Shown here piece by piece: positions 16,674-32,481 of a stretch of 64,000 nucleotides of DNA. Each line of letters begins with the position of its first letter. Position 1 is the stretch's first letter. The DNA is from Candidatus Methylomirabilis lanthanidiphila. GTDB lineage: Bacteria > Methylomirabilota > Methylomirabilia > Methylomirabilales > Methylomirabilaceae. The notes beneath the pieces are model-generated. The model was given only the letters and a program-made list of their open reading frames with translations, searched no databases and was not told the DNA's origin. Location of the stretch: NCBI GenBank assembly GCA_902196205.1, contig CABIKM010000026.1:62001-126000 (forward strand), given 5' to 3'. The position numbers were made by a program, and so were the translations under genes.

Positions 16674-17582
16674 TTAGTGTTTGGCAGTAAGCATAGTGAG
16701 GAGGGAGTAGAGGGCGAAGTTGTATGGAGTTGGCAGGCTCAGTGCGGTCGCCTTCTTAATAATGACGCCATTCAAGGCTTCATGCTCTAAAGGTTTGCCC
16801 GCCTCGTAGTCCTGAAGCATTGAGGTCTTGACGTCGTAGTGTTCGGAGAACTTGAGGTTGCGTTCCCACACCTGCTCAAAGGCCAGGCGAACCCCAGAAG
16901 CGTTCGCTGCGGCGACGACCTCCGCCGTCACCAGCCTCGCCAGTTCGAGGGTGTAAGGATTCTCGATGATCGTCTTGACGGGGCCGCCGACCAGGGTATT
17001 AATTGAGTTAAAAGGAGCATTCCAGGCCAGCTTGGCCCACAGGACGGTTTTCATATTGGGCGAGGCTTCAGCCGGACAGCCGTAACGGTCGAAGAACGCC
17101 TTGAGTCCGGCAACTCGCTCGCTGGCACCCCCGTCGAGCTCTCCGAATACGATCTTCCCGCTCTCCTGATGAAGGATCACCCCAGGCTCCGGTGAACTCG
17201 CCCCGATGTAGGCGATCCCTGCCAAGACCTTCTCCTGTCCGATGACGGACGCGATCTTTTCCTCGTTGTCGATCCCGTTCTGAAGCGACAGCACGTCGGT
17301 TTGCGGCCCGACCATTGGGAGTGCCTGGCGAATTGCCGACTCGGTGTCGTATGATTTCACGCAGAACAGGACCAAGTCGACGGGACCAACCTCCGCTGCA
17401 TTATCGGTGGCGCTGACGCGGATGGAGAAGTCCCCCTTCCAACTCTTGACCGTGAGGCCCTTCGTCCGGAGCGCCTCCAAACGCTCCCTGCGGGCGATGA
17501 ACGTGACGTCGGCGCCGCCCTTGGCCAACAGCCCGCCGAAGTAGCCCCCCACCGCCCCTACCCCCACCACCGCGACTTTCAT
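16674..17582 (-). CDS. panE: 2-dehydropantoate 2-reductase
   Basis: 302 residues. It reduces ketopantoate to pantoate with NADPH in pantothenate/CoA synthesis. The N-terminal dinucleotide fold GVGAVGGYFGG is intact, followed by the ApbA/PanE signatures LFCVKSYDT and LQNGIDNEE, with the C-terminal helical domain containing KLAWNAPFNSI (family Lys and Asn/Ser contacts). I start it at the ATG at 17582, which has GGAGGTG seven bases upstream. It is monocistronic. Some ApbA-family proteins act on other 2-oxo acids, so the assignment is by family. Confidence 0.9.
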   Translation of the reverse strand: MKVAVVGVGAVGGYFGGLLAKGGADVTFIARRERLEALRTKGLTVKSWKGDFSIRVSATDNAAEVGPVDLVLFCVKSYDTESAIRQALPMVGPQTDVLSLQNGIDNEEKIASVIGQEKVLAGIAYIGASSPEPGVILHQESGKIVFGELDGGASERVAGLKAFFDRYGCPAEASPNMKTVLWAKLAWNAPFNSINTLVGGPVKTIIENPYTLELARLVTAEVVAAANASGVRLAFEQVWERNLKFSEHYDVKTSMLQDYEAGKPLEHEALNGVIIKKATALSLPTPYNFALYSLLTMLTAKH

Positions 17583-17712
17583 CCGTTCACCTCCGATCAC
17601 GCTGTCGCACATCCCACGTTCCAGTGGTCATGCAGGAAGCAGCGTAAACCCCTCAGTTCTGGCCGCAGTCCTTTAATGTACAGAGGAATCAGGACAGACG
17701 CGTCCCAGAATT

Positions 17713-18114
17713 TCACCGGGATTCCGTTCGTTCTTTCAAGAGTGCTTCCAAGGCGCGGTTCTTAGGATCTTTCGGCCGTGGCAAGTGCCAAAAGTCATGA
17801 GGTAGTTTATCTGTCCCGATTTTGGCCAGCCCCGCTGTCTTGACCGCCAGACCCTTCAACTCGGCAAAGACCGGTGACGCCGTGTTGGCGTGATAATACA
17901 CTTGGTTCCCGCGCTGCGTCCTAACAAGCAGCCCGGCTTCGACCCAGCGCGCCAACTCGCGCTGCGCCGCCCCCTGGCCGATCTCGGCCGTGCGCACAAT
18001 CTGCCGGAGATAAAACGACTGCTCCGGCCGCACGAAGAAGAGCCTCAGCAGCGCCCGCTGCGTCTTGCCGAACAACGCCGTGCCGATTGTATGGACTGAA
18101 CTGACCGTACTCAT
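17713..18114 (-). CDS. Winged-helix transcriptional regulator with a foreign C-terminal tail
   Basis: About 133 residues from the ATG at 18114. Residues ~10-80 form a winged helix (KTQRALLRLFFVRPEQSFYLRQ, then RELARWVEAGLL) of the kind fused to minimal nucleotidyltransferase domains in many genomes. Here, just after KGLAVKTAGLA where the nucleotidyltransferase domain should begin, the chain switches to a short Pro/Lys-rich end (LPHDFWHLPRPKDPKNRALE) that looks like the C-terminus of a small antitoxin. It may be a chimera created by deletion. GTAC-containing inverted bases just upstream of the start could be an autoregulatory site. Confidence 0.6.
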   Translation of the reverse strand: MSTVSSVHTIGTALFGKTQRALLRLFFVRPEQSFYLRQIVRTAEIGQGAAQRELARWVEAGLLVRTQRGNQVYYHANTASPVFAELKGLAVKTAGLAKIGTDKLPHDFWHLPRPKDPKNRALEALLKERTESR

Positions 18115-18170
18115 TCTGGGTACGAGTGTATCCACGTAGGGTACAACTTTCAAGTCTCTTGTGCGCCCGC

Positions 18171-18254
18171 GCCCTGAAGTACGAGAAGGTCTATCTGAAA
18201 GACTACATGGAGGTTCTGGAGGCTATCGAATCAGGCCGGCTTCCTGAAAACTGA
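18171..18254 (+). mobile_element. Fragment of an IS3-family transposase (OrfB C-terminal region)
   Basis: In one plus-strand frame the bases encode ALKYEKVYLKDYMEVLEAI, which strongly resembles the LKYEEVYLKDY segment found near the C-terminus of IS3-group OrfB integrases, just before the FYN..RPH motif. The match stops after about 20 residues and runs into the 3' end of radC, so only a scar remains. It marks the left border of the defence island. Confidence 0.6.
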
Positions 18255-18885
18255 AGTAGCCTTTCCGCGTCACTATCACGTGATCCAGAACGCGAAGTCC
18301 GAGAATCTTCCCGGCCTCCGTCAATTGCTCGTGGATGCGGAGATCGGCCTCGCTTGGTTGAAGGTCGCCGGATGGGTGATTGTGGGCAAAGATCACGGCG
18401 GCGGAACGGTCCGCGATGACGTCGGCGAATACTTCACGCGGATGAACCGGGCTTTTGTCGAGCAGACCAATGGTGACCACACGCTTTTCGATGACCTCGT
18501 TCGCGCCGTTCAGGGAGATGCACACGAAATACTCTTGTTGTTTCCCAGCGATGTCGGCCACAAGCGGCAGCACGTCCTGAGCCACGGTGATCTTGACGGT
18601 GTCCTTGAGTAGGTGTCGCCGGGCCAGCTCAAAGGCCGACAGGATTTGCGCGCCCTTCGCAAGCCCCATGCCGGGGACGGCCAGCAAGTGATCGAGTGTC
18701 AGGTCCGCCTTGTGCTCCCGGATCAGCCCCGCCACCTGCCGGGCCATCGTGCGGACATCAATACCCACGGTTCCCACACCGAGGATCGCCGCGACAAGCT
18801 CCTCGTCGGATAGGGCCGACGCGCCTCTCTCCCGCAATTTCTCGCGGGGGCGGCAGTGCTCCGGCATGTCCTTGATAGTTTTCAT
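18223..18885 (-). CDS. radC: RadC family JAMM/MPN+ domain protein
   Basis: 220 residues, full length for the family. A helix-hairpin-helix region (LDHLLAVPGMGLAKGAQIL) precedes the metalloprotease-like domain with HNHPSGDLQPSEAD near residue 168, the intact JAMM metal-binding motif. Despite its old name a role in DNA repair is not established; RadC-like genes are frequent in mobile and restriction loci. It is the last gene of the island. Its first 13 codons (MKTIKDMPEHCRP) are also present as truncated copies ending modules upstream at 20325-20363 and 23614-23652, which makes this gene the terminal anchor of the stack. Confidence 0.92.
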   Translation of the reverse strand: MKTIKDMPEHCRPREKLRERGASALSDEELVAAILGVGTVGIDVRTMARQVAGLIREHKADLTLDHLLAVPGMGLAKGAQILSAFELARRHLLKDTVKITVAQDVLPLVADIAGKQQEYFVCISLNGANEVIEKRVVTIGLLDKSPVHPREVFADVIADRSAAVIFAHNHPSGDLQPSEADLRIHEQLTEAGKILGLRVLDHVIVTRKGYFSFQEAGLIR

Positions 18886-18916: not shown

Positions 18917-19738
18917 TTAACGAGATCCGTTGGACGACCATAACCTGCTAAACTCCGGCGTCTCTCGCTCACTCCACCGGTAGATCGCATCACTATACCC
19001 ACGGAGGATAGCAATTGTCTGGTCACTCACCCGTCTGAAGGACTCTTCAGACTCGTCAACTAAGGGATCTGGCGACCGAACGTCATTGAGAACAACCACC
19101 CGCTGGCTGGCTGGACGCGTTTCTTTCAACTCCATCCATGTGAAGGACACTAGCTTGGCCGTCTGTGGGGACGGACTTCCAATCAATTTTACCAGTCGCT
19201 CTATCTTGGGATGCAGTGGGATAACAAAGTCTATGGGATGCTCCACAGTTCGCCCTGGTATGCTCACATTTGCCGTGTACAGAACCTGGCGACGGTCAAG
19301 GAATTCGGCGACCATCTCAAAGAAATCGATAAGAGTATACGGGACCTGACTCATCCATAGATCATTGAGTCGAATAACTGCCGTCAGAAGGTAGTGAGCT
19401 CGTTGTGATAGGTTGGCGGCAGTAGCGGTTGTTTCCAGCCGTTCCTTTGTCTGCCGCACCGCGCATCCCGCTATTGCTCTTTCGATCAAAGCTTTCCGGC
19501 GTGCAGAATCTTCAATCTTGACTCCGAGGCACTGAAGGTTCTCCAAAGTGTTACCGTTGTCATGAAGAACGAATTCCCCGTTAGAGCGCTCAATGTAGAT
19601 CTGAATACCGTCGTGGAACGGGTCCAAAAACGGAGTACTTAAGACTGACACGTCCCCTCGCTCGATTACCCTTAAACGCTCTTTGAGCCAGTTCAGGTAA
19701 TCCTGAACGATATCGTTGTGCGGCCGAGCTACTGCCAT
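18917..19738 (-). CDS. DUF1828/DUF1829 domain protein (candidate defence gene)
   Basis: 273 residues. The N-terminal half matches DUF1828 (TPFLDPFHDGIQIYIE, then FVLHDNGNTLENL), and the C-terminal half matches DUF1829, with TAKLVSFTWMELKE and VVVLNDV. I know of no biochemical function for either domain. The gene starts one base after the stop of the DUF6978-like gene and probably forms a two-gene module with it. The module occupies the third cargo slot between an hsdS-tail/radC-head scar and radC, where the other two slots hold anti-phage systems. There is no signal peptide or membrane segment, so it is probably cytosolic. A role in defence is inferred only from position. Confidence 0.7.
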   Translation of the reverse strand: MAVARPHNDIVQDYLNWLKERLRVIERGDVSVLSTPFLDPFHDGIQIYIERSNGEFVLHDNGNTLENLQCLGVKIEDSARRKALIERAIAGCAVRQTKERLETTATAANLSQRAHYLLTAVIRLNDLWMSQVPYTLIDFFEMVAEFLDRRQVLYTANVSIPGRTVEHPIDFVIPLHPKIERLVKLIGSPSPQTAKLVSFTWMELKETRPASQRVVVLNDVRSPDPLVDESEESFRRVSDQTIAILRGYSDAIYRWSERETPEFSRLWSSNGSR

Positions 19739-19739
19739 C

Positions 19740-20174
19740 TTAGATGAGCTCCATCTGTATACCGTGAGGGAAGTGCGCGCTAATCAGTTCAAGAAAACGC
19801 TCCAGCGTACCAAACGGATTGTTCGCATCGTACCAATCGACCGGATCGGCCCATTCTAATCCGAATCCTTCGCGGTACCGGTGCAAGTGGGGTTGGTCCC
19901 TTATTTCCGTACCATCAGGATTGGGATGATACGGGTTATTATCCAGCCGAACAAGCCCCATGTCTCGATCTCTAGTCCTGAAGTGAAGCCGAACCTCAAA
20001 GGGATTCCGCTTCAAAGAGAGCACAAACCTAAGCCCTTTCTCGTTGGTAGCCGTTAAGCCCTCGTCGGTGTGCCTGTTGGCAATCCACACGAAAGGATCG
20101 GTCCTTTCGGCCTCCTTGGCAGCCTCTATCAGTCTATCTGCTTGGGCTTGAGTCAGCAAGTTTCGTCCTTTCAC
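19740..20174 (-). CDS. DUF6978-like protein (candidate defence gene)
   Basis: 144 residues, starting at a GTG at 20174 with a weak ribosome binding site. The pattern FVLSLKRNPFEVRLHFRTR, then NPDGTEIRDQPHLHRYREGF, fits the DUF6978 family as I recall it, which is often encoded next to DUF1828 proteins. The clustered His and Asp residues (HPNPDG, HLHRY) could bind a metal or act as a hydrolase site, but this is speculation. It begins ~30 bp beyond the hsdS-tail scar at 20204-20331, so it is the first gene of the third module. Confidence 0.55.
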   Translation of the reverse strand: MKGRNLLTQAQADRLIEAAKEAERTDPFVWIANRHTDEGLTATNEKGLRFVLSLKRNPFEVRLHFRTRDRDMGLVRLDNNPYHPNPDGTEIRDQPHLHRYREGFGLEWADPVDWYDANNPFGTLERFLELISAHFPHGIQMELI

Positions 20175-20203
20175 TGGGGGTGTCTTCTCGGGTTCCCTCC
20201 TCC

Positions 20204-20363
20204 CCCCACATCTCCGCCAGCTTCGCCCACATCTTCTTCTCCATCCGCACGATCAGCTCCCGATTCGCCTCCGCCAACTTGCGCTCCGTCTCCAACTCGG
20301 CGACGATCCGGCGCTGGGTGGCGAGGGGCGGCTGTGTTCCGGCATGTCCTTGATGGTTTTCAT
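20204..20363 (-). pseudogene. Hybrid scar A: radC 5' end fused to hsdS 3' end
   Basis: Read on the minus strand, 20363-20325 is a radC start (MKTIKDMPEHSRP). At a shared CCGCCCC the sequence switches to the 3' end of a type I specificity gene; in that frame it encodes RRIVAELETERKLAEANREL and continues to KLAEMWGEE near 20204, the same tail that ends hsdMS. Neither piece is functional: the radC frame stops after 36 codons at 20253. Bases 20231-20357 are identical to 23520-23646. The start codon overlaps, as ATGA, the stop of the probable extended herA frame. Confidence 0.9.
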
Positions 20364-20504: not shown

Positions 20505-22199
20505 CTATTCGGAACTCGGTCTTTTTTCTGCAATCGGTGAGACCTCAAGTCGAACCGGCATCTTCGACGCTTGGCCGATGGCGATGACCTGGCCACGGGG
20601 TAGGGACGGCAGAACACTGGTCAACATCTGCATCGAATCCGGCAGCAAGGCGAGGACATGGTTCTTATCAACAGTATTGGCAAGCCGCATGCAAAGGAAG
20701 GTATTGCACTGGCTCAAAAGCGTTTCACTTAATTCACTGGGACGCTGACTGACAACCAGCGTACCGATTCCGAATTTCCGGCCTTCCTTTGCGATACGCT
20801 CCACGCTGTCTCGTGCCTCTCCGTAGGCGCCTCGACCACTCCGCGAAATATAGTTGTGCGCCTCCTCATATACAGCCAGTGTCGGGGTCGTTGCACCCCG
20901 TTCAGCGAGGAAATGGACCTGAAATAGCATGCGCGAAATGGTCGCCACCACCGTGCCAACCGTTTCCGAGGGCAGGTAGCTGAGGTCAAACACAGTAATC
21001 GGTGTTGATTTGTCACCGAGGAAAGCCGTCATCTTGCGTACAATGTCGGGAAGTTCATCCTTACTCTTTTCCTTGAGCGTGTATTTGAACATGAATGCGT
21101 AACGCGGATCATTTATGCGAGAGTCAACACGCAACACCAGGCGGTCCAGTTGTCCATTCATAGGACCAGGGGAAATGGATCCTGCCTTCTTTGGTTGGAA
21201 TTTCATCCTTTTTCCGAACCAGTCCTCTGTTTCACCCACCTCCAACGCCCAGTTATCGGACTTGTCCTGTGTCGCTGCATTTTGGTTGTGGAGGTAATTT
21301 TGAAGCCCTGTAATATCGAATGGAACGGGGGCATCTAAATCTACCTTCTCGGCCAGCACCTTGTCAGTTAGCACATCTTTGCAGTAAGTCTGCTTGAGCT
21401 TCAGAATGCCCTCTCTGAAGGCCCAACTTTGGTTATGAATATTGAATTGGTTTCCTAAGTCTGCGCACAGTTGAAAGAGGTCATCAAACCCGTGCAACCA
21501 AGCAGGTAGTGAAAGCAAGTCAGCACGGATGTGCCGAGCCTCTGCGCCGAAGCAGGTGCTGTACTCGCCATGTAGATCGAAGACAACAATGTTGCCGCCT
21601 GGAAAGTCAGACACAAGCTGCTGAATCAGCCGGGCAACGGTATATGACTTCCCGCAACCTGTTGTGCCGACAATAGCCGTATGCTTGCCCAGAAGATGAT
21701 CAACGTCGAGATAAACCGGCAAGTCCGAATCAACATGGTTGCCAATAGAAACAACGTTCCGGTCTGCGGGCGGGGAAAGCGCAATGCGAAGGTGATCTTC
21801 CAGAGCCAGCGTGACAACGTCACCAACTACCGGCAACCGGAACACGCCGACCTCAAAAGCGCCGCCAACAATCGTGCCGACAATCACACCGTCAATGAGT
21901 GTCTTGTCGATCTGATTCGTGGGCATCGGAAGAAATGGGAAATGCCCTGCGGGCAGTAGTGGGTTGCTTTGCCCTGCGCCAACAGAGGGCTCGGTGGGTA
22001 CCCACTTGCTTTTTCTGACAGTTGTGACGAGGACAAGGTACTTATCGTGACCTGCGTCAACGATCAGATAGGTTCCCGGCTGCCCGACTGTGTAGGTTGC
22101 GCCTTCGTGGCGCACATGTAAGTCGCTCAACTGTGGGTCAACCTCAACTGTCACCTGCGCTCCGGAGACCGCGAGCACCTGCCCGATATTCTTACTCAT
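20505..22199 (-). CDS. HerA-like DNA translocase/ATPase of a SIR2-HerA defence module
   Basis: 564 residues as read. An N-terminal beta-barrel (HAS-barrel-like) domain leads to a DUF87/HerA FtsK-like ATPase with Walker A GTTGCGKS at 178-185 and a Walker B region LAVYEEAHNY, plus the arginine-containing VVSQRPSELSETLLSQCNT segment. HerA forms hexameric rings; with SIR2 it forms a known anti-phage complex that degrades NAD. The start overlaps the SIR2 stop as ATGA. Oddity: at an A6 tract (20522-20527 on the plus strand) the frame ends after ten more codons, while one base fewer would add 53 plausible residues (for example HWGKKIGQRKEPDIAKICDYW) and end exactly on the following ATG at 20360-20363. 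A one-base insertion near the 3' end is likely. Confidence 0.88.
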   Translation of the reverse strand: MSKNIGQVLAVSGAQVTVEVDPQLSDLHVRHEGATYTVGQPGTYLIVDAGHDKYLVLVTTVRKSKWVPTEPSVGAGQSNPLLPAGHFPFLPMPTNQIDKTLIDGVIVGTIVGGAFEVGVFRLPVVGDVVTLALEDHLRIALSPPADRNVVSIGNHVDSDLPVYLDVDHLLGKHTAIVGTTGCGKSYTVARLIQQLVSDFPGGNIVVFDLHGEYSTCFGAEARHIRADLLSLPAWLHGFDDLFQLCADLGNQFNIHNQSWAFREGILKLKQTYCKDVLTDKVLAEKVDLDAPVPFDITGLQNYLHNQNAATQDKSDNWALEVGETEDWFGKRMKFQPKKAGSISPGPMNGQLDRLVLRVDSRINDPRYAFMFKYTLKEKSKDELPDIVRKMTAFLGDKSTPITVFDLSYLPSETVGTVVATISRMLFQVHFLAERGATTPTLAVYEEAHNYISRSGRGAYGEARDSVERIAKEGRKFGIGTLVVSQRPSELSETLLSQCNTFLCMRLANTVDKNHVLALLPDSMQMLTSVLPSLPRGQVIAIGQASKMPVRLEVSPIAEKRPSSE

Positions 22200-23431
22200 T
22201 GTGCGCCCTCCGTGGTCTTCGTTGTGCCGGGCATGGCATCCAGTGTCTTGAATTCCGGAACGAACTGCGAGAATTCCATACTAATGACAGGTTGAACTGA
22301 GCGGGAGACCCCGAAGAGGGACTTGAGATTGTCGCTCTTCACCTGCGGGTCAACGACAAATAGAAGCGTGTTGTCGCGTTCGACAAATGACCGAATTGCT
22401 GAGCGGATGTGCTGATCAGGGAAGCTCGTCCCAATGCAAATCAGTAGTTCAATTTCCTCCAGTGTGCGCCGGAATGCCTCAAACAGATCCATGTACGGCA
22501 CGGTATATGTCTGAGAGTATTTCGCTGGCGTGGGGAAGATCACGATTCGTTTACTTCGGTCCGGTTGCTTAGCGGACAGCGCGCCGCAACTCGCTAGGTT
22601 ATCCGACAAGCTCCCGTCAACTCTGCGAACGATTATGGATTGATCAGAATAGTCCGCTTCGCCTTCTCCCGACCCGTCAGCACCAATGGCCTGAGCATAG
22701 GTCCAGTCAACGGAACCGTGTAGTTTCCAGTAATAGACGGCGCATCGTTCACCAAACGAAGATACCTCCCGTCTATAGCATCCCATGTTGAACGTCGGCA
22801 GTATCGCACTTTCAAATCCGTCCACCAAGACGAGGTCCGGTCGGCGGTCGGCACGAGGCCGTTGTGATAAGCGGACCAACGCAGCTTCAACGCACAGGTC
22901 AATATTCGTGGAGAAAACTCGAATGAGTTTGTTTGCCGGTTTCCCAAAGGAAGCCATAGCCAGGAAGAAGTCGGCCAAATAGTCCACGTTGCCGCTGCCA
23001 TGTTTGGAGTGCTTATGGCTCGACAGGTCGCACATCTCGGCCATGAATCCGATAAGTTCTTCCGAAGCCTGCCTGATTGCCGTTGCAGGAATCTCGGATT
23101 TCCCAATAGCAGTTGTCACCGGGGCGAATGCGGTATGTGCAGTCCCCGCAGCGTCGAGGAGTTGAGATAGTCTGGTCAGCAAGTCCTCGATATTCCAATT
23201 CGCAAGTATCTTCTGGTCTTCGGGGCACAGCGTCTTCAATAGATCCAGCGTCGGCTTGGTGATTCCGTAATCGGGTTTGTTGTCTCGAATCTGACCGCGA
23301 AGGATTTCAGCGATTTCCACCATGGTCGGAATGCCGTAGTCGTAACTTGCCCCGGCGCCGAGGAATACCGCCCATCGCTCTTTAGCCTGTCGTAAGCTGT
23401 TGTGCAGGTTCAGTACCGGGGAATCACCCAT
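22196..23431 (-). CDS. SIR2-like NADase of a SIR2-HerA defence module
   Basis: 411 residues from the ATG at 23431. The SIR2 Rossmann fold is plain: FLGAGAS at 23-29 (NAD pyrophosphate loop), STNID at 174-178, and YYWKLHGS at 233-240 with the likely catalytic His238, then IGTSFPDQHIRSAI near the C-terminus. SIR2 effectors of this kind hydrolyse NAD on phage infection, and the adjacent HerA gene (4-bp ATGA overlap) identifies the two-gene SIR2-HerA system. A 13-bp tandem duplication places a second, out-of-frame ATG with the better-placed ribosome binding site just upstream (see findings). It sits in the second cargo slot of the hsdS/radC stack. Confidence 0.9.
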   Translation of the reverse strand: MGDSPVLNLHNSLRQAKERWAVFLGAGASYDYGIPTMVEIAEILRGQIRDNKPDYGITKPTLDLLKTLCPEDQKILANWNIEDLLTRLSQLLDAAGTAHTAFAPVTTAIGKSEIPATAIRQASEELIGFMAEMCDLSSHKHSKHGSGNVDYLADFFLAMASFGKPANKLIRVFSTNIDLCVEAALVRLSQRPRADRRPDLVLVDGFESAILPTFNMGCYRREVSSFGERCAVYYWKLHGSVDWTYAQAIGADGSGEGEADYSDQSIIVRRVDGSLSDNLASCGALSAKQPDRSKRIVIFPTPAKYSQTYTVPYMDLFEAFRRTLEEIELLICIGTSFPDQHIRSAIRSFVERDNTLLFVVDPQVKSDNLKSLFGVSRSVQPVISMEFSQFVPEFKTLDAMPGTTKTTEGAQ

Positions 23432-23455
23432 GACTATCACCCATGACTATCTCCT
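23431..23455 (-). promoter_or_regulatory. Duplicated start region of the SIR2 gene
   Basis: On the minus strand AGGAG is followed by two tandem copies of ATAGTCATGGGTG. The first ATG (23444) has ideal spacing from AGGAG but opens only a six-codon frame (MGDSHG) whose TGA overlaps the second ATG (23431), which starts the SIR2 protein. Translation of the SIR2 gene may therefore depend on re-initiation. Confidence 0.5.
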
Positions 23456-23493
23456 GTCTTGAGATCAACCGCAGCGCGGGCGATCAGTTCCCC

Positions 23494-23652
23494 CCCAAAT
23501 CTCCGCCAGCTTGCCCTGAATCTTCTTCTCCATCCGCACGATCAGCTCCCGATTCGCCTCCGCCAACTTGCGCTCCGTCTCCAACTCGGCGACGATCCGG
23601 CGCTGGGTGGCGAGGGGCGGCTGTGTTCCGGCATGTCCTTGATGGTCTTCAC
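23494..23652 (-). pseudogene. Hybrid scar B: radC 5' end fused to hsdS 3' end
   Basis: Same structure as scar A: on the minus strand a radC head (23652-23614, here with GTG start) is joined at CCGCCCC to an hsdS tail that ends in KKIQGKLAEIWG near 23494. The radC frame stops at 23542. It begins one base after the stop of the RloC-like gene and ends ~65 bp before the SIR2 start. The distal tail (IQGKLAEIWG) is closer to the authentic HsdMS end (IQVKLAEIWG) than to scar A (MWAKLAEMWG), although 127 bp around the junction are identical between the scars. Confidence 0.9.
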
Positions 23653-23653
23653 G

Positions 23654-26023
23654 TCAGACTTTCTCCGCACCGCTGAAGGTCTCCTGAATTGCCGAACAGA
23701 TTTCTTCGCGGGTCAACGTGTGCTCAGGTAGTTTTGCCAACCCGCCGTGATGGGCCATATCTGAAAGCCTGCATAAGCGGAACAGTTGATCCTTCGTGGC
23801 GTTGCTGACGAGTCCTTTACCGTGAAGAGTGCCAATGAGGTCGCCTAATCCGCTCTTGTCCTTGATTTCGGCGGCTAGGGTTCGGTAGTACTTGGTTTTC
23901 AGAATGATCTCGAAAACCTTGCGGATGTTGCCCTGCATATCTTCGGGTGTGGGTCCGAAGTCCTCGTCCAGATAGCGACTCATGTCGTCACACAGGCGGG
24001 CGATCTCCGCTTTGCGATCGTCCTCTACATCAAAAGGTTCGATCCAGCTACCGTTCTTCTTGTCGGACTTAAGTTGAAGCACGCCCTTGTTTTGAATGCC
24101 GTCGAAAAGCATCCGAAGAAAGTCCTTCTTGTGGGTGAACACGCAAAGCTGATTCACCAGAGGGGAAAGACCAGCCAGTAATGTGACCGTGCCTAAACGC
24201 CGAGTCTCGTCCAGACTGGAAAGCGGATCGTCAAAGATGACGATTTGCTTGTCGAGTTCCGGCGCCTTCTCCAGTGCTGCAATGAAGAAAGCAAAGGCCA
24301 ACGTACTCTTGTCGCCCTCGCTGAGCGTATTCTTGAAGGACGGCGCATCGTCCTGGCGGGATGTGAGCGGGACTTTCTGTTCCAGAATGAGGAATTCAAA
24401 ATCGCTGTAGCTTTCGTTTGCCCGCTCATCTGTCTTTCCTGTCAAACCGATGATGGTGAAGTCGGCTCCTAAAGACAAAAGGCGCCTGTTGATGCGTGTC
24501 TGGTACGTCTCGAAGATGGTCTTGGTGTAGGCGGCAAGCTCAGCCTCCTTGGCCTTCTTCTGGTTCAGAAGGTTGTCGGCGTCCATCTTGACCGCCTGGT
24601 AGTCAGTTGCCCATTTCTTCCATTCTGGCTTAAACCGCGACTGGATCTCCCGTTCCTTCGCCAGCGCAATGCGGATCGAAGGAACGTCCGACTTTGGCAG
24701 ACTCGCAACGCAGTTCTTCGCTTTCTCTGTGAAAGCCGTGACTGCCGTGTTGTACGATTCGACAGCCATTTTTATCGAGGCGAGCTCAGCGGTGAGAGCG
24801 TCGAATTGCGGCAGCTCAGCATCGGCGTTCGGGTCTTTCTGCTTCTTATCCAACTCGGACTGGATCTTAGCCTTCAACTCGGTAAGTTTGGGACGGAGGG
24901 TCTCAGCGGTAGCCGAAACAGCGGGCAACGTTTCCACTCCAATAAAGGGTTCCCACTGCCTCAACGTGGCAATGTTGGCGTTATGGACGGAAACCAGCGC
25001 TGTGAGGTCGTTGTCGAGATTCCATTTGGCAAGTGCCGAGGCCCGCAGGACGAGATTCTGTTGGTAAGTCCGGAAGGCATCGTTGAAGAATTCCTGGTAT
25101 GCCTTTAGGAGATCAGCCGCGTTTTTTAGATTCTGTCCGCAGAACGGGCAATCCGCCTGCACATGATCGAGCCCTTGCCGTATGAACTCCTTCGCTTGCG
25201 CTTTGTTTTTGATGTTCTGGTCAATGTGAGTAAGAACGCGCTTCTCGGCAGTCGCATGTGCGGCGGCGAGCTTTTTTGCGACGAGTGCCCTCAACTCGTT
25301 CAGGTAATTAAGTGGGGTCGACATCTCCTCCTCGTCCTGGATGACATCCGACGAGTCTTGCCCTGGTTGAGTCGGATCGAAGTCCGGTGCCGTTAATGTG
25401 TTTGGATAGCTGAGTTGCCGGATTCGGGTCTCGGATTCCTTTGACTTAATGTCTTGTTCAAGCTTCTGGATTCGCGTGATAACCGCGATTTCTTCAGCGG
25501 TAGAAATTGTCATGAAAGCGTCGAGTTTGTGATGTGTGAAGCGAGCGTCTGTAAACTGCTTGGCAAGGACTTCGAATTGCTGTCTCCGTTCCTTCTCACG
25601 GTTCTTTAGGTTAGCGAGTTGTTCAGCCAGCTTGATCCCCTCAGCGCCGATGATGATCTTGTGAATGTTCTTTTTGTGTTCATGTTCGATCTTTTGGGCA
25701 AGGATGTTCGCATGGATGAAGGGGGTGTCGAAAATCCGAATGTTGGGAAACGGCCTATCCCATCTCGTGTCGTTGAAAACATGGTTTGCCCCGTCAATAA
25801 TGATGACGGCTTCGGGCGCGGCGACTTTGCCCAAGGTCTTGCGACTTTGGACCAATTTCGAGTTATTGTCGCGCAGAGATCGGAGGACATTGACAAGGGT
25901 TGACTTGCCATAGGCGTTGGGAGCAAAAAGGAAGGTATTTTTATGCCAATCTAACCCCTCGCCTTTTGCGGTAAAGCCATAGAACTTGCCGACGTTCTTG
26001 AGGAGCTTGACCTTGGTGATCAT
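23654..26023 (-). CDS. RloC/PrrC-like AAA_13 ATPase, probable restriction-linked anticodon nuclease
   Basis: 789 residues; the start ATG overlaps the hsdMS stop as ATGA. It is an ABC/SMC-type ATPase: Walker A region APNAYGKST (34-42), a long coiled-coil middle with a zinc-hook-like CPFC at 292-295 embedded between helices, ABC signature LSEGDKSTLAF (~568-577), Walker B IVIFDDPLSSLDE (~594-606) and a switch His in CVFTHKKDF. The C-terminal domain has R701-x3-E705 and a later AHHGG (His758/759), reminiscent of the Arg-Glu-His set of the PrrC/RloC anticodon nucleases. Those proteins guard type I restriction systems and cut tRNA when restriction is inhibited. The nuclease assignment is inference; a plain AAA_13 ATPase is the alternative. 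Confidence 0.7.
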   Translation of the reverse strand: MITKVKLLKNVGKFYGFTAKGEGLDWHKNTFLFAPNAYGKSTLVNVLRSLRDNNSKLVQSRKTLGKVAAPEAVIIIDGANHVFNDTRWDRPFPNIRIFDTPFIHANILAQKIEHEHKKNIHKIIIGAEGIKLAEQLANLKNREKERRQQFEVLAKQFTDARFTHHKLDAFMTISTAEEIAVITRIQKLEQDIKSKESETRIRQLSYPNTLTAPDFDPTQPGQDSSDVIQDEEEMSTPLNYLNELRALVAKKLAAAHATAEKRVLTHIDQNIKNKAQAKEFIRQGLDHVQADCPFCGQNLKNAADLLKAYQEFFNDAFRTYQQNLVLRASALAKWNLDNDLTALVSVHNANIATLRQWEPFIGVETLPAVSATAETLRPKLTELKAKIQSELDKKQKDPNADAELPQFDALTAELASIKMAVESYNTAVTAFTEKAKNCVASLPKSDVPSIRIALAKEREIQSRFKPEWKKWATDYQAVKMDADNLLNQKKAKEAELAAYTKTIFETYQTRINRRLLSLGADFTIIGLTGKTDERANESYSDFEFLILEQKVPLTSRQDDAPSFKNTLSEGDKSTLAFAFFIAALEKAPELDKQIVIFDDPLSSLDETRRLGTVTLLAGLSPLVNQLCVFTHKKDFLRMLFDGIQNKGVLQLKSDKKNGSWIEPFDVEDDRKAEIARLCDDMSRYLDEDFGPTPEDMQGNIRKVFEIILKTKYYRTLAAEIKDKSGLGDLIGTLHGKGLVSNATKDQLFRLCRLSDMAHHGGLAKLPEHTLTREEICSAIQETFSGAEKV

Positions 26024-28440
26024 TCCGCTCCCCAAATCTCGGCCAGCTTCACCTGAATCTTCTTCTCCACCCGCGCGATCAAGTCCCGGTTCGCCTCCAC
26101 CAACCTCCGCTCCGCCTCCAACTCCGCCACGATCTGGCGCTGGATGTCGAGGGGCGGGAGGGGGATTGGAACGGTCTCGACTATTGACTGGTTGATCTTC
26201 GGCATACTCCCGGCTGAACCCGATGCATTCCTCTTAAGAAAAGCCCTCGCATCGGGAGATTGAAGTACGACAATCAAATACTCACTCAATACGATGGACT
26301 CGTTTGCCCGAATTCTGATCATCAAGTCCGGATAGACATAATCTCCGTCATCAACATTAAACAACGCGGCAGTTCCAACTAATTCGGCGGTGTTTCCACG
26401 CTGAAGGAAGATGTCGCCCTTACGGCATCGCACTGGAGAGTCCCGACTGATTCTCTCATCCAAGTATTTGAATTGCGCGATGTCCAATCGACCGCTGGTT
26501 GTGGCACTCAACGACAAGACCTTCACTTTCGTAGGGAAATCAACAGGCTTCCCAGAGTAACCGTTCTTCGGTTTCTCCGTAATGATGTCTCCGAGACGCC
26601 GAACAGACCACGCCGGATCAATCCGGATGGTGGGTTTGTAGTTGGCGATGACCTGGCGGGCGCCTTCGATGACCTTCCGGTAGCCCTCCAACTCCGCCAC
26701 GATCCGCTCCTGCTCCGCCAGCGGCGGGAGGGGGACTTCTATTACGACTAAGTCTTTCGCATAGACGTGCGGTTGCGCCATACCTTTCTGGATGCCGTAA
26801 ATTGCTTTTTGTTTTCCTTTGAGAATTTCAGAAACAAAGCGAGTTTTCGCTTTCTGTTCATCGAGCGAAATAATCGTTGTGCAATCGGTAGCGAAGATGG
26901 GGACTTCGAAATAGTTTACGAACCCAGCATACGCGCCAGACGCGCTCACTGTGATAACTGGTGGTTGGCGGTTCGCCTCTGCGTGGTAGCAAGAAGGCAC
27001 TTGTCCGCCAGCAATCACGGGAACATTTCCAGGCTTTGCTTGGGCTCTTGTAAAACTAGCTCCCTTTTCCAGTTTGCACACCTTCCCTAACTTCACCATC
27101 GGCCACTTGCCGTTGGGGAGGGTAGCAACGGGGCGATAGCGGTCGCCGGAGAGGTTGCAGTCGGGCGATTCGAGGAGGCGCTTGCGACTCACGGCATGCG
27201 CCATTTTATTTTCTCCCGTTTGTCGCCCCTTCTTGTGGCTATCCATAATCCTCAGCGCGCCCATCAAATCGCTTCCCTCGATCGGCCTTCTCTGTGCGCC
27301 GAGGTTGAATCCGTCGTTCTCCACCTTCACAAACAGCACCTCATCCGTCCGCTTTGCGAGGTTGCGGTCGAGGAAGAGGATGCTGGTTTTCACGCCGCTA
27401 TATGGATTAAACACGCCAGCCGGAAGGCTGACTACGGCCCAGAGGTAATTCTCAACGAGCATTCGGCGCAGGTTCTTGTAGGCGTTCTGGCTCTGGAAGA
27501 TGATCCCCTCTGGAACGATGACGCCCGCGCGTCCGCCTGAGTTGAGGTGCTCGGCAATGTAGTCCACGAACAGCACTTCGCTTCGCTTGGCTTTGATGGA
27601 AAACCGGTTGTGCGGGCGGATGCCGCCTGTCGGGGTCATGAACGGCGGATTGGCCATGATCACGTCACACCGCTCGTCCCATCGCTCTTCGCTGGTCAGT
27701 GTGTCGTACTCGTGAAGGGTCGGATTCGGGAAGCCGTGCAGGTATAGGTTGACGCGCGAAAGGCGCACCATGTCGGGCGCAATGTCATAGCCCCGAAAAT
27801 TGGTCATCAGCCGCGCCCGCTCGTCCGGGGTGAGGTTCTCGTTGTTCCGTACAATGTGCTTGAACGCCGAGATGAGAAAGCCTGCCGTGCCGCAGGCCGG
27901 ATCAAGGACGGTGTCATTCTTCTGCGGATCTACAACGGCAACGATAAAGTCGATAATATGGCGCGGGGTGCGGAACTGCCCGGCGTCGCCTTGGGTGCCA
28001 AGAACGGAGAGCAGGTATTCGTAGGCATCGCCGAGGCGTTCGCTGTGATCGTAGGTGAACCCGGCGATCTCTTTCAGGAACAGGTTGAGCGTTTCAGGGT
28101 CGCGGTATGGCAGGAACACGCCCCTGAAAATGTCCCGAAAGAGTTGAGGAATATTCTTATTCTCGTTCATCTTCTCGATGCCTTCGGCATAGAGACCCAG
28201 GCGCTCGTGACCACCGAGGCGCTTGTCGAGCAGATTGGCCCACCGGTATTTCTTGAACTCGCCGATGAAGAACGTCGCCTTGCCGCCCAGTTCTTCGGAC
28301 TGGCGGTCCATGTCGTCCATGAATTTGTAGATCAGGGCAATCGTAATCTGCTCCACCTGCGATTTCGGATCGGGCACCTTACCGACCAGGATGTCGCGCG
28401 CGGAGTCGATTCTTGCTTTGGTGTCAGTATCTAACATCAC
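26020..28440 (-). CDS. hsdM: Fused type I DNA methyltransferase and specificity subunit (HsdM-HsdS)
   Basis: 806 residues. Residues ~1-430 are an N6-adenine methyltransferase with an N-terminal helical HsdM domain, SAM-binding motif DPACGTAGF (180-188) and catalytic NPPF (264-267). Residues ~440-806 are a specificity region with two target-recognition domains, each followed by a conserved helical repeat (LPPLAEQERIVAELE and LPPLDIQRQIVAELE). One polypeptide therefore carries both methylation and bipartite recognition. It starts 7 bp after hsdR. Its final ~45 codons (to KLAEIWGAE) are the parent-type sequence of the two hsdS-tail scars downstream. Confidence 0.92.
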   Translation of the reverse strand: MMLDTDTKARIDSARDILVGKVPDPKSQVEQITIALIYKFMDDMDRQSEELGGKATFFIGEFKKYRWANLLDKRLGGHERLGLYAEGIEKMNENKNIPQLFRDIFRGVFLPYRDPETLNLFLKEIAGFTYDHSERLGDAYEYLLSVLGTQGDAGQFRTPRHIIDFIVAVVDPQKNDTVLDPACGTAGFLISAFKHIVRNNENLTPDERARLMTNFRGYDIAPDMVRLSRVNLYLHGFPNPTLHEYDTLTSEERWDERCDVIMANPPFMTPTGGIRPHNRFSIKAKRSEVLFVDYIAEHLNSGGRAGVIVPEGIIFQSQNAYKNLRRMLVENYLWAVVSLPAGVFNPYSGVKTSILFLDRNLAKRTDEVLFVKVENDGFNLGAQRRPIEGSDLMGALRIMDSHKKGRQTGENKMAHAVSRKRLLESPDCNLSGDRYRPVATLPNGKWPMVKLGKVCKLEKGASFTRAQAKPGNVPVIAGGQVPSCYHAEANRQPPVITVSASGAYAGFVNYFEVPIFATDCTTIISLDEQKAKTRFVSEILKGKQKAIYGIQKGMAQPHVYAKDLVVIEVPLPPLAEQERIVAELEGYRKVIEGARQVIANYKPTIRIDPAWSVRRLGDIITEKPKNGYSGKPVDFPTKVKVLSLSATTSGRLDIAQFKYLDERISRDSPVRCRKGDIFLQRGNTAELVGTAALFNVDDGDYVYPDLMIRIRANESIVLSEYLIVVLQSPDARAFLKRNASGSAGSMPKINQSIVETVPIPLPPLDIQRQIVAELEAERRLVEANRDLIARVEKKIQVKLAEIWGAE

Positions 28441-28446
28441 GTTTTC

Positions 28447-30972
28447 CTAGGCCGCAAAAGCGTTCAATGAAACATAATCCTTCACGTATTCCGGGATCAC
28501 GTCCCGCCACTGGTCGAGGGCGCGCACGTCCGCCAGCGACACCTTGGGGTTGTCCGCCAGCTTGGGGAATTCGCGGGAATCCACAATAGCCCGGACGCCT
28601 CCGTCGGTGACATACGCTTTGAAGAATTGCCGGATAACCGGCATGTGCATGGCGTCAGGTTTATAGATCGAGACGAACTTCGCCAACTCTTCTTCGAGCA
28701 GTTCGTCCTTGGTCTTGAACCGATCAATCTCACCGAACACCTTGGCGAGGATTTCGCGCAATGTGACGCGGCGGTCGAGTTGGACGGCCTTGCGGAGTTT
28801 GTCAAGATTGAAGAAGTCCTCCGGCTTGTTGAACAGCGCCGTCACCACGACCTCTTCTGCGCCCTTGATGTCGCCGCGCTCGTACCGCTCGCGGACTTCG
28901 AGCGCGGCCTTGACCTTGTCCTCAAACTTCTCGAAGAATTTGCGGTCAATCTTCATGCCGTGGAGGGGGACAGGAATTTCAACATACTCGGCCAGCGGGT
29001 CCGGGTTCACGTTTGTGAAAGCTGGCGAGACTAGCGGGGGTGGTGGTGGTTCCGGCCCCAACCCGGTCGGACGCAACGGTGGCAACTTAATGACCTCATC
29101 GTAGTTGAATTTCTCCTCGAAATATTCGCAGTTGGCGAAGAAATCGAACAGCTTGAATCGTTCTTTCTGTTTCGTGTGTTCCTCAGTACGCCCACCCTCC
29201 TTCTCCACGTAGCGAAACGTATATGTGCGCGTGCCGCGCCCTTTGATTTGGATAAAGTCGGTCGGCGAGAAGATCGGGCGGAGCAGGACGATGTTCAAGA
29301 TGTCTTCACAGTCGTAGCCGGTCGTCATCATCCCGACCGTGACACAGACGCGGGTCTTTGAACTGATGTGACCGTCCAGAAAGCTGGTGTGTCCATTGAG
29401 GTTGTTATTGGCGAAACTGATCGCCATTTGCTGAGCTTCGTCTATCCGCGACGTGACCTGGACGGCGAAGTCCGAGTTGTATTTACCGGGAAACATCGCG
29501 TGGGCCAGTTCGTTCAGCTTTTGAGTGATGCGGGTGGCGTGGTCCTGCCGGATGCAGAAGACGATGCTCTTGCCGATCTCGCCGCTGAGCGGATCGCGGA
29601 GGGCGTTCTTGAGAAAGGTGTCACAGAATACGCGGTTGGTTTCGTCGGAGAAAAACCTCTTCTCGAAGTCCCGCCCGAAGAACGTCTGCTCGACCAATTC
29701 GCCGTCTTCGTTCTCCGACATCACGGAGTAGCCTTCTTCGGCGAGCAGTTCCGTGGTGATCTCGGTCCGCGCGTCCACGACGACCGGGTTCAGCAGGTAA
29801 TCCTCGCGTACGCCGTCAATCAGACTGTAGCGGAAGGTCGGCGTTCCGCTCTCACAACCAAAGGTCTTGTAGGTGTCCATCAATTGGCGGCGTTCCCACT
29901 CGCGCGGATCGCGCTGGTTGATCCTCGCTGGGTCAATCTTCTTGAGGTAGTCCTTCGGCGTCGCGGTCAGGCCGAGTTTGTAGCCAATGAAATATTCGAA
30001 CACCGCACGACTGTTGCCGCTGATGGAGCGGTGCGCTTCGTCCGAGATCAGCAGGTCAAAGTCTGTCGGCGAAAACAGCCGCCGATACTTGTTGTTGAAC
30101 TGAAGGCTTTGAACGGTGGATACCACGATGTCGGCCTTGCGCCAGTCGTCACGATTCTCCTTGTAGATGACGGTGCGGTAGTCGTTCTTGAGGAACTGAA
30201 CAAATCGCTTCTTCGCCTGATCCTCCAGTTCGATGCGGTCCACTAGAAACAGCGCGCGCTTGGCGTTACCGGTGCGCATGAACAGCTTGATGACGGCGGC
30301 AGCGATCAATGTCTTACCCGTACCTGTAGCCATCTCAAACAGAAAGCGCGTCTGGCCCTTTCGCGCGGCGGCTTGGAGGGCCGCAATCGCCCGAAGTTGG
30401 TACAGGCGAAGGAACTTCAGTTCCGCGTCTTTGATGAAGGCATCACGTTGCGCGGCATCGTTCCACCGAGGATCATTCCGGTAGTTGGGATTCTGAGTGA
30501 CCGCGACGTAATCGGCTTCAATCTTCTCGGTGGCGATGACGTCAGGGTTTGGTGTGAATGCGTGAAAATGGCCGAGTGACTCGGGCGTCGGGAACTCGGT
30601 AATGATGGTTGGGTTGCCGTGCTCCAGGTCCCAGAAGTAATGTAGGTTGCCGTTCGAGAGGATGACGAAGCGAACATTCTGCGAGCGGGCGTACTGACGG
30701 GCTTTTTCCTTGCCGACGAGCGGATCGAGATTTTCGCGCTTGGCCTCCAAGACGGCAATCGGGAAACCGCGTCCGTCCAACAGCAGGTAGTCAACAAAGC
30801 CGTCGCCGGTCTTCTCGAAATCGTCGCCGAGAGCGTCAAGGGTCTTTTTCTTGAGTTTGACGTGCGCTTCGAGCGCGATATTGGCTGGGCCGGTCTCGTC
30901 GTCAAAGAAGCGCCAGCCCGACCGTCGGAGGAGGTCGTTGATCAGAATCCGCGCCTTGGCTTCCTTAGACAT
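28447..30972 (-). CDS. hsdR: Type I restriction endonuclease subunit R
   Basis: 841 residues, shorter than EcoKI HsdR but normal for the EcoEI-like branch. The nuclease core is visible as D61 with E76-A-K78 (VLEAKR). The superfamily 2 helicase motor follows: Walker A MATGTGKT (214-221), DEAH at 311-314, SAT-like GLTATP, and a motif VI region KGRGTR. A C-terminal helical domain contacts the methylase. The complex cleaves unmodified DNA after ATP-driven translocation. It is the first gene of the minus-strand island; about 150 bp separate it from the sigma-54 regulator upstream and presumably hold the promoter. Confidence 0.95.
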   Translation of the reverse strand: MSKEAKARILINDLLRRSGWRFFDDETGPANIALEAHVKLKKKTLDALGDDFEKTGDGFVDYLLLDGRGFPIAVLEAKRENLDPLVGKEKARQYARSQNVRFVILSNGNLHYFWDLEHGNPTIITEFPTPESLGHFHAFTPNPDVIATEKIEADYVAVTQNPNYRNDPRWNDAAQRDAFIKDAELKFLRLYQLRAIAALQAAARKGQTRFLFEMATGTGKTLIAAAVIKLFMRTGNAKRALFLVDRIELEDQAKKRFVQFLKNDYRTVIYKENRDDWRKADIVVSTVQSLQFNNKYRRLFSPTDFDLLISDEAHRSISGNSRAVFEYFIGYKLGLTATPKDYLKKIDPARINQRDPREWERRQLMDTYKTFGCESGTPTFRYSLIDGVREDYLLNPVVVDARTEITTELLAEEGYSVMSENEDGELVEQTFFGRDFEKRFFSDETNRVFCDTFLKNALRDPLSGEIGKSIVFCIRQDHATRITQKLNELAHAMFPGKYNSDFAVQVTSRIDEAQQMAISFANNNLNGHTSFLDGHISSKTRVCVTVGMMTTGYDCEDILNIVLLRPIFSPTDFIQIKGRGTRTYTFRYVEKEGGRTEEHTKQKERFKLFDFFANCEYFEEKFNYDEVIKLPPLRPTGLGPEPPPPPLVSPAFTNVNPDPLAEYVEIPVPLHGMKIDRKFFEKFEDKVKAALEVRERYERGDIKGAEEVVVTALFNKPEDFFNLDKLRKAVQLDRRVTLREILAKVFGEIDRFKTKDELLEEELAKFVSIYKPDAMHMPVIRQFFKAYVTDGGVRAIVDSREFPKLADNPKVSLADVRALDQWRDVIPEYVKDYVSLNAFAA

Positions 30973-31122: not shown

Positions 31123-32481
31123 TCACGGGGAAATGTTATAGCGCTTGATCTTGCTGTTGAGGGTTTTCAGGTCGATGCCGAGCAGTCGGGCGGCCTGCAT
31201 CTTTTTGCCTCCGGTGTGATCGAGTATACGGATAAGGTGCAGCCGCTCCATTTCCGCGAGTGAGACGGGACCGACCGACGAGCCTCCCGGGAACCGGGTG
31301 TTGGGCGGCAGATCCTCAAGGCCGACGGCATCGCCCGAGGTGAGGATCTGAAGGCGCTCGATCGTATTTGCAAGTTCTCGCACATTGCCCGGCCACGGGT
31401 AATCCACCAGCGATTGCATGGCTTCCCGAGAGATGGTCTTGGCCTGTTGACCGGTGACCCGGCATTGCTGCAAGAAGTGCTCAATAAGGAGCGGGATGTC
31501 CTCCTTCCGCTCACGCAGAGACGGCAGCGTCACACTGACGACGTTCAGGCGATAATAGAGATCCTCGCGGAATCCACCTGTCCGCACCTCGTGAGCCAGG
31601 TCCTTGTTGGTCGCGGCGATGATGCGCACGTCCACCCGGTGCACGCGGGTACCCCCGACCCGTCGTAACTCCTTGGTATCGAGTACTTGAAGGAGCTTCG
31701 CCTGCATGGCCGGACTCATCTCCCCGACCTCATCCAGCAACAGGGTCCCGCCCGCCGCCACCTCAAAGAGCCCCATCTTGACGCTGGTTGCGCCGGTAAA
31801 CGCCCCCTTTTCATGCCCGAACAGCTCGCTCTCCAGCAACGGGTCCTGAAACCCGCTGCAGTTGATGATCAGGAACGGCCCGTTGGCTCGAGGGCTCGCC
31901 ATATGAATGGCCTTGGCCACCAGGCTCTTACCGGTCCCGCTCTCTCCCTGGATAAGGATACTCGCCTCGCTCGGCGCGATCCGCCGTATGGTGGCCAACA
32001 GGAAGGCCATGGCCGGGCTCTGACCGATCATGATGGGCGCAGGCTCGCGCTGGGCGACCATGCGGCGCAGGGCCGTATTCTCGGTACGCAGGCGCTTTCG
32101 CTCCGCGGCCCGCCACAGCACCTCTTCCAATTCGGCGAGCTTAAAAGGCTTGGTCAGGTAGTCGTAGGCGCCCAGCTTCATCGCCTGAATGGCGCTGTCC
32201 ACATCGGGGTGGCCGGTCAGGATGACCACCTCCGCCGAAGTGCCGGAATCGCGAATGTGGCGGAGCGCCTCCATCCCCCCGATCCCCGGCATCTTGAGGT
32301 CGAGGAGGATGACATCGAACTCCTGCGTTCGCAACTGCTCCAGGGCCTCTTCGCCGCTTCCGGCGCAGGTGACCTGGTAGCCCGCCCGCGGCAGCTCCAT
32401 TTCCATGAGCAGCCGGATGGGTCGCTCGTCATCAACAATCAGCGCACGAGTCACGCCGCTCCGTTCACTCGCGTGAACCAT
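31123..32481 (-). CDS. NtrC-family sigma-54-dependent response regulator
   Basis: 452 residues from the ATG at 32481, which overlaps the kinase stop by 17 bp. The receiver domain (RALIVDDERPIRLLM, phospho-acceptor Asp in VILLDLKMPG, YLTKPFK) precedes an AAA+ domain with GESGTGKS, the sigma-54 contact loop GAFTGA and a GGTLLLDEVGEM Walker B. A Fis-type helix-turn-helix (MQAARLLGIDLKTLNSKI) ends it. It is the output partner of the kinase encoded immediately upstream. Target genes are unknown; the sigma-54 promoter at 14896 is one candidate in the window. Confidence 0.93.
   Translation of the reverse strand: MVHASERSGVTRALIVDDERPIRLLMEMELPRAGYQVTCAGSGEEALEQLRTQEFDVILLDLKMPGIGGMEALRHIRDSGTSAEVVILTGHPDVDSAIQAMKLGAYDYLTKPFKLAELEEVLWRAAERKRLRTENTALRRMVAQREPAPIMIGQSPAMAFLLATIRRIAPSEASILIQGESGTGKSLVAKAIHMASPRANGPFLIINCSGFQDPLLESELFGHEKGAFTGATSVKMGLFEVAAGGTLLLDEVGEMSPAMQAKLLQVLDTKELRRVGGTRVHRVDVRIIAATNKDLAHEVRTGGFREDLYYRLNVVSVTLPSLRERKEDIPLLIEHFLQQCRVTGQQAKTISREAMQSLVDYPWPGNVRELANTIERLQILTSGDAVGLEDLPPNTRFPGGSSVGPVSLAEMERLHLIRILDHTGGKKMQAARLLGIDLKTLNSKIKRYNISP

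Follow-up and report, generated by a model that had tools for sequence, protein, structure and literature searches.

How did the same 127 bp, made of pieces of two genes, come to stand at two places in one bacterial defence island, when the sequence on either side of the two copies differs? This question is raised by an island within a window of 64,000 nucleotides (the whole stretch of DNA that was analysed) from Candidatus Methylomirabilis lanthanidiphila, in which two short remnants, here called scar A and scar B, lie between predicted defence genes. A sequence-only reading of this DNA had proposed that a fusion of radC and hsdS arose once and was copied, and that segments from different donor loci were then joined by homologous exchange. 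Our analysis supports this interpretation in part: most likely, the scars represent one copied joint between separately acquired cassettes, with homologous recombination in shared gene ends.

Organisation of the island and its chromosomal site

On the minus strand, the genes follow in the order hsdR, hsdMS (fused), AAA_13 ATPase, scar B, SIR2-like gene, herA, scar A, DUF6978, DUF1828 and radC (Table 1). The hsd genes are predicted to encode a type I restriction-modification system, with matches to ResIII, HSDR_N, N6_Mtase and Methylase_S (two matched stretches) as well as to the type I models of PADLOC. All cargo genes matched models of known or candidate defence genes. For the AAA_13 cargo these were Pfam AAA_13 (E 4e-39) and PADLOC PDC-S06 (E 1e-73), and PrrC at only 1.5e-6. 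The SIR2-like and HerA genes are adjacent, overlap by 4 nt and match the PADLOC SIR2 and HerA models, so that they are predicted to form a SIR2-HerA defence pair. The GC3 of the cargo is 0.56-0.65, versus 0.75 for radC and hsdR. In the 10-40 kb region no repeat larger than the scars was found, and thus the cargo itself was not duplicated.

Table 1. Features of the island and its flanks (positions within the window)
Feature	Position	Strand	Basis and remarks
Hotspot flank, ketopantoate-reductase-like	16674..17612	-	Conserved in the genus; name from sequence resemblance, not family search
Intact radC, last gene of the operon	18223..18885	-	Pfam RadC E 2.2e-38
Cargo 3b, DUF1828/DUF1829	18917..19738	-	PDC-M24B
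Cargo 3a, DUF6978	19740..20174	-	PDC-M24A
Scar A, hsdS side, last ~135 nt	20198..20331	-	hsdS-tail profile positions 3-137, E 4.1e-29; ends MWAKLAEMWG
First 127-bp copy (scar A)	20231..20357	-	Identical to 23520-23646
CCGCCCC fusion point, scar A	20325..20331	-	7-bp radC/hsdS microhomology
Scar A, radC side, first 39 nt, truncated	20325..20363	-	radC-head profile positions 1-38, E 5.9e-6; alignment
Cargo 2b, HerA helicase	20505..22199	-	Pfam DUF87; PADLOC HerA E 2.9e-119
Cargo 2a, SIR2-like protein	22196..23440	-	Pfam SIR2_2; PADLOC SIR2
Scar B, hsdS side	23490..23621	-	hsdS-tail profile E 2.6e-31; ends IQGKLAEIWG
Second 127-bp copy (scar B)	23520..23646	-	Identical to 20231-20357
Scar B, radC side	23614..23652	-	radC-head profile E 2.3e-5; begins GTGAAG, 1 nt past the AAA_13 stop codon
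Cargo 1, AAA_13 ATPase	23654..26023	-	PADLOC PDC-S06, weakly PrrC; start set at ATGA overlap
Authentic hsdS 3' end	26022..26160	-	hsdS-tail profile; ends IQVKLAEIWGAE; ATGA overlap with next gene
hsdMS, fused methylase and specificity subunit	26020..28440	-	Pfam N6_Mtase, Methylase_S
hsdR, type I restriction subunit	28447..30972	-	Pfam ResIII, HSDR_N; PADLOC REase_I
Hotspot flank, sigma-54 response regulator	31123..32844	-	

The island occupies a defence-island hotspot, that is, a site with variable content between conserved flanks and with empty counterparts in relatives. The flank genes are only 62-92 bp apart in three of these relatives (G011, G009 and G001), and the gap is differently filled in G000, G005, G008, G014, G010, G003 and G006, the last being a relative in the genus with a complete genome of 2,752,854 bp. 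In a sister species, the same hotspot (L025, 4472-10285) carries a 37-residue hsdR head and, behind it, a large helicase-nuclease (AAA_11/AAA_12, MTES_1575), then an hsdS tail and finally radC in intact form; the interior of the restriction operon has been replaced there.

Within the hotspot of the window, the small frame at 17713-18153 (minus strand) is chimeric and represents another fused relic. Its residues 1-112 resemble the nucleotidyltransferase-type regulator PDC-M05A, with 80-89% identical stretches in L009, L026 and L089, and its residues 102-146 resemble a stretch in L092 as well as the terminal part of an antitoxin-like gene of L025 (3346-3654). Furthermore, the same genome contains a second, decayed site (L009, 6897-7975; G000 contig C64), composed of an hsdS tail, a nucleotidyltransferase/HEPN-like pair and a radC head, without hsd genes or an intact radC.

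The two scars share one joint

The base-for-base identity claimed for the two copies is exact: it covers 127 bp, the adjoining base is different at both ends and neither side can be extended. The copies are embedded in a wider homology of 164 bp (20200-20363 versus 23489-23652) with 10 mismatches, at 20200, 20201, 20209, 20224, 20225, 20228, 20229, 20230, 20358 and 20363. None of these falls within the 127 bp (0/127), whereas the adjoining homologous bases differ at 10 of 37 positions; eight mismatches affect the terminal codons on the hsdS side, and the other two are in the initial codons of the radC head. When ten mismatches were placed at random, a mismatch-free run of 127 bp was not obtained in any of 400,000 shuffles. 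On the radC side the divergence starts immediately past the identity, with ATGAAA in scar A and GTGAAG in scar B.

Each scar consists of the first 39 nt of radC and the last ~135 nt of hsdS, which overlap in CCGCCCC and are fused one frame off, and thus out of frame. The radC head, CCGCCCC and the hsdS tail were found in both copies, as had been described, and the tail ends listed by the sequence-only reading for A and B (Table 1) and for the authentic gene (IQVKLAEIWG) proved correct. Within the 18-31 kb region, CCGCCCC occurs at four sites only, namely in radC (18847), scar A (20325), scar B (23614) and hsdS (26151). A comparison of the final 200 bp of hsdMS with the initial 100 bp of radC gave no other exact match of at least 7 bp, and the heptamer covers 8 of the 20,299 possible breakpoints between these gene ends. 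That the joint lies on the longest available microhomology suggests that it originated by illegitimate joining. That the fusion arose once and was copied is well supported by the shared breakpoint and by the contrast between 0/127 differences inside and 10/37 in the adjoining homology.

Could the 127 bp instead be functional, for example as a regulatory RNA or a site-specific recombination site, with the cargo inserted there by a dedicated enzyme? Its perfect conservation and its location between cargo units would suit such a role. However, a Pfam scan of the ten island and flank proteins revealed no recombinase, the repeat had no Rfam match and a fold z-score of -0.35, other loci break at different positions, and the sequence is fully accounted for as pieces of two genes. 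We regard this explanation as barely credible. An RNA or structured element was likewise rejected as a separate candidate, the fold calculated with RNA parameters being not unusual, and scans for dedicated promoters or terminators at the scars gave counts close to the shuffle level.

A technical origin was also considered. The value 127 is a common maximum k-mer size in assembly, and the genome is a draft of 90 contigs, so that the repeat could be a de Bruijn graph node with a wrong connection between two strains or loci. The order of the two inner cassettes rests on the assembler's choice, since the repeat is as long as a common largest k. The scars themselves are argued to be real by the conservation of both hotspot flanks, by the locus L100, which also has AAA_13 directly after hsdMS and a truncated hsdS tail after AAA_13, and by similar relics in independent assemblies. 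We consider an assembly artefact very unlikely.

Origin of the scars

Compared to the resident genes, the scars are ~14-16% different in the hsdS part and differ at 3 of ~29 bases in radC, while no difference exists between A and B. This bears on the possibility of a local tandem duplication, in which the resident hsdS and radC would have undergone unequal exchange at CCGCCCC, so that an hsdS tail-X-radC head unit was duplicated and triplicated, two cargo copies being replaced later. Both resident genes do contain the microhomology, and a tail tree allows a clade of the scars with the resident hsdS. The divergence from the resident genes speaks against it, as does the lack of any duplicated cargo in the island, and the divergent ends would still require replacement of the cargo by exchange. 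We consider such a duplication rather unlikely.

Trees of the tails had been suggested as a way to distinguish between donors and a local origin. In the tail tree, which with 139 columns is too short to decide, A and B grouped together (96/86), and the scars and the resident hsdS as one clade were not rejected (AU p = 0.42). Because of this p value, the tree cannot separate a donor from a local origin.

Alternatively, an array of complete hsdMS-cargo-radC units could have collapsed when deletions removed what lay between a radC head and the following hsdS tail. The same product in the same orientation would be expected, and heavily eroded hsd loci are common in the genus. On the other hand, none of the loci examined contains a complete tandem array, and the identical deletion would be required twice or would have to be copied, which leaves this an unlikely course of events.

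Scars A and B probably mark where separately acquired cassettes meet; the joint would have been formed a single time, at a microhomology, and then spread by homologous recombination in the shared hsdS and radC ends. In this model the interval between hsdS and radC would serve as a slot for other defence genes, and a cassette unit would comprise an hsdS 3' end, the cargo and a radC 5' end, with scars A and B joining successive cassettes. The first joint would have formed when a radC head was joined illegitimately to the hsdS tail of another locus at CCGCCCC. The 127-bp piece may then have recombined homologously with other copies of the operon, and crossovers in the shared hsdS 3' and radC 5' ends would have introduced SIR2-HerA and DUF6978-DUF1828 together with their own hsdS ends. 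Such events would leave the joint identical at both places and the flanking sequence different. The order of events, the route of DNA uptake and the homologous nature of the exchange are what we infer here.

Exchange with other operon copies fits the divergence of the scars from the resident genes, the unduplicated cargo and the lower GC3 of the cargo, which amounts to a fit rather than a proof. The sharp change at both edges of the 127 bp requires homologous replacement under exchange and under duplication alike. The proposal that different donor loci contributed the segments is in keeping with the mosaic pattern, the GC3 values and the absence of a larger duplication in the region. A search of 95 genomes of the phylum, and of plasmids and phages, gave no locus with the exact tail of either scar. 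The 95 genomes yielded tail and head relics and other radC genes only, and no donor of SIR2-HerA or DUF6978; in plasmids and phages the scar had no match.

Truncated gene ends recur as relics

We searched 94 sequences (1.39 Mb) with profiles built solely from intact hsdS ends and intact radC starts. Additional truncated hsdS tails were found in L100 (behind AAA_13), L025, L026/L027 (near twins, two each), L088, L089, L009, L111 and L112 (two), and additional truncated radC heads in L103, L104, L026/L027 and L009. The same profiles found neither tails nor heads in 65 control loci with other radC genes (L115-L179). In other genomes the relics do not end at the same positions, and the exact joining process may therefore vary from one locus to another. 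L026 lies at the same hotspot as the island and repeats its arrangement (hsdS tail, cargo, radC head, hsdS tail, cargo), but both the cargo and the junction are different. The process thus recurs, whereas the window's joint arose a single time.

In L112, a deltaproteobacterial MAG, the hsdS tails at 2936-3039 and 5894-5993 are ~3 kb apart; three non-obvious genes lie in this interval, and the second tail is followed by YhcG-radC.

Why should a cargo gene travel with the end of a gene to which it does not belong? Among 16 tails examined, the hsdS stop reads ATGA, a form able to overlap the next start codon, in seven, and in most of the others the next long frame begins within or directly behind the tail. 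The pattern includes relics that lack the rest of hsdS (L026 tail 1, L112 and L111). The tail probably stays with the cargo because the cargo start overlaps the hsdS stop or lies closely behind it. A cargo gene that starts inside the hsdS tail must carry the tail along on moving, which explains why each cargo keeps its own hsdS end. This part of the sequence-only reading gains comparative support from the start/stop overlaps in intact relatives and in relics, and from the tails at cargo borders in other species and phyla. The hsdS tail may also have a role in the translation of the cargo.

The operon and its cargo slot in other phyla

Relatives of the island radC with 62-90% identity were found in Verrucomicrobia, Omnitrophota, a Troglogloeales MAG, Hydrogenedentota, Lentisphaerae, Planctomycetota, Armatimonadetes and several deltaproteobacterial MAGs; the phylum labels of the MAGs are those of the record titles, and some contigs may be mis-binned. 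The operon, with hsdR 82-85% and radC 82-90% identical, is present in Verrucomicrobia, Omnitrophota, Hydrogenedentota and Planctomycetota. Where the contig is long enough, hsdR (82-85%) and hsdMS lie upstream of radC, in L100, L101, L104 and L106. A Lentisphaerae MAG has radC (80%) and a partial hsdMS, and several other relatives have radC without intact hsd genes on the DNA stretches examined. The radC tree is star-like, with the phyla intermixed. The restriction operon hsdR-hsdMS-[cargo]-radC is horizontally spread among very different bacteria. A search of viral contigs for the hsd-linked radC gave only distant relatives of this gene (54% or less).

The slot contains AAA_13 and an MNT-type nucleotidyltransferase in L100, HipA_2 and DUF3037 in L101, RloB and AAA_21 in L104, YhcG in L106 and L112, and a deaminase fusion in L111. 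It is empty in L105, where the hsdMS stop and the radC start overlap as ATGA. The wider finding of this analysis is that the restriction operon, which has crossed phyla, has a slot for cargo between hsdS and radC, and that the half-gene scars are a record of how it grew. Tentatively, we propose that the hsdS 3' end and the radC 5' end could act as homology handles of a general cassette slot across many phyla, in which unrelated defence genes would be swapped or chained without a dedicated recombinase, leaving readable scars.

In an Omnitrophota sequence (L270, 267-9009), hsdR, hsdMS and a distant radC-like gene are followed by SIR2-like and HerA genes, a gene order which indicates that SIR2-HerA cargo is tied to this restriction operon elsewhere too. 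In E. coli conjugative plasmids (L266, 8992-16540), a relative of the island hsdR (57%) precedes a methylase gene and an SMC-like gene; matches were obtained in 56 plasmid records. In L103 (60-275), L104 (10120-10230), L111 (6930-7000) and L101 (9930-10000), we observed 3' ends with a triple repeat of the type TCCGGACATTTATCCGGACATTTTGTCCGG, the letters of which differ from locus to locus. They sit just upstream of radC or a radC head and are probably the ends of cargo genes.

Comparison with known systems

Our literature search found no paper describing a cargo slot between hsdS and radC. Growth of defence islands gene by gene and without an integrase is an open question, and preserved joints allow the order, breakpoints and donors to be read from sequence in principle. 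If the slot is general, hsdS and radC ends could be used as a search key for unknown defence genes, the content between them being likely defence cargo.

The island resembles integron gene-cassette arrays in that cassettes are chained with a short repeated sequence between them. In contrast to these arrays, the Pfam scan of the ten island and flank proteins found no integrase or other recombinase family, the repeat has no attC-type or otherwise unusual fold, and it consists of gene fragments. PrrC/RloC and the hypervariable hsd region of Campylobacter jejuni likewise have variable non-restriction genes between or beside hsd genes, including PrrC-related AAA ATPases, and the hsd loci of C. jejuni are reported to be extensively rearranged (PMC5183652). 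Unlike in those loci, the slot of the island lies between a fused hsdMS and radC, several cassettes are joined in a row, and the borders retain hsdS tails and radC heads in truncated form.

Homology-facilitated illegitimate recombination (PMC3240628), in which one end is homologous and the other illegitimate, would produce half-gene relics of this kind beside new cargo. The scar joint has a 7-bp microhomology at one end, and the mosaic edges suggest a homologous other end; in difference to that process proper, the origin of the scars is deduced from their sequence. Finally, the island shares variable defence content, conserved flanks and empty sites in relatives with the E. coli immigration control region (PMC12707154), Pseudomonas islands (PMC12629846) and other E. 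coli defence hotspots (PMC10121019). Unlike in these hotspots, exchange in the island would also take place at a second, inner level, within the restriction operon and via the ends of the operon's own genes.
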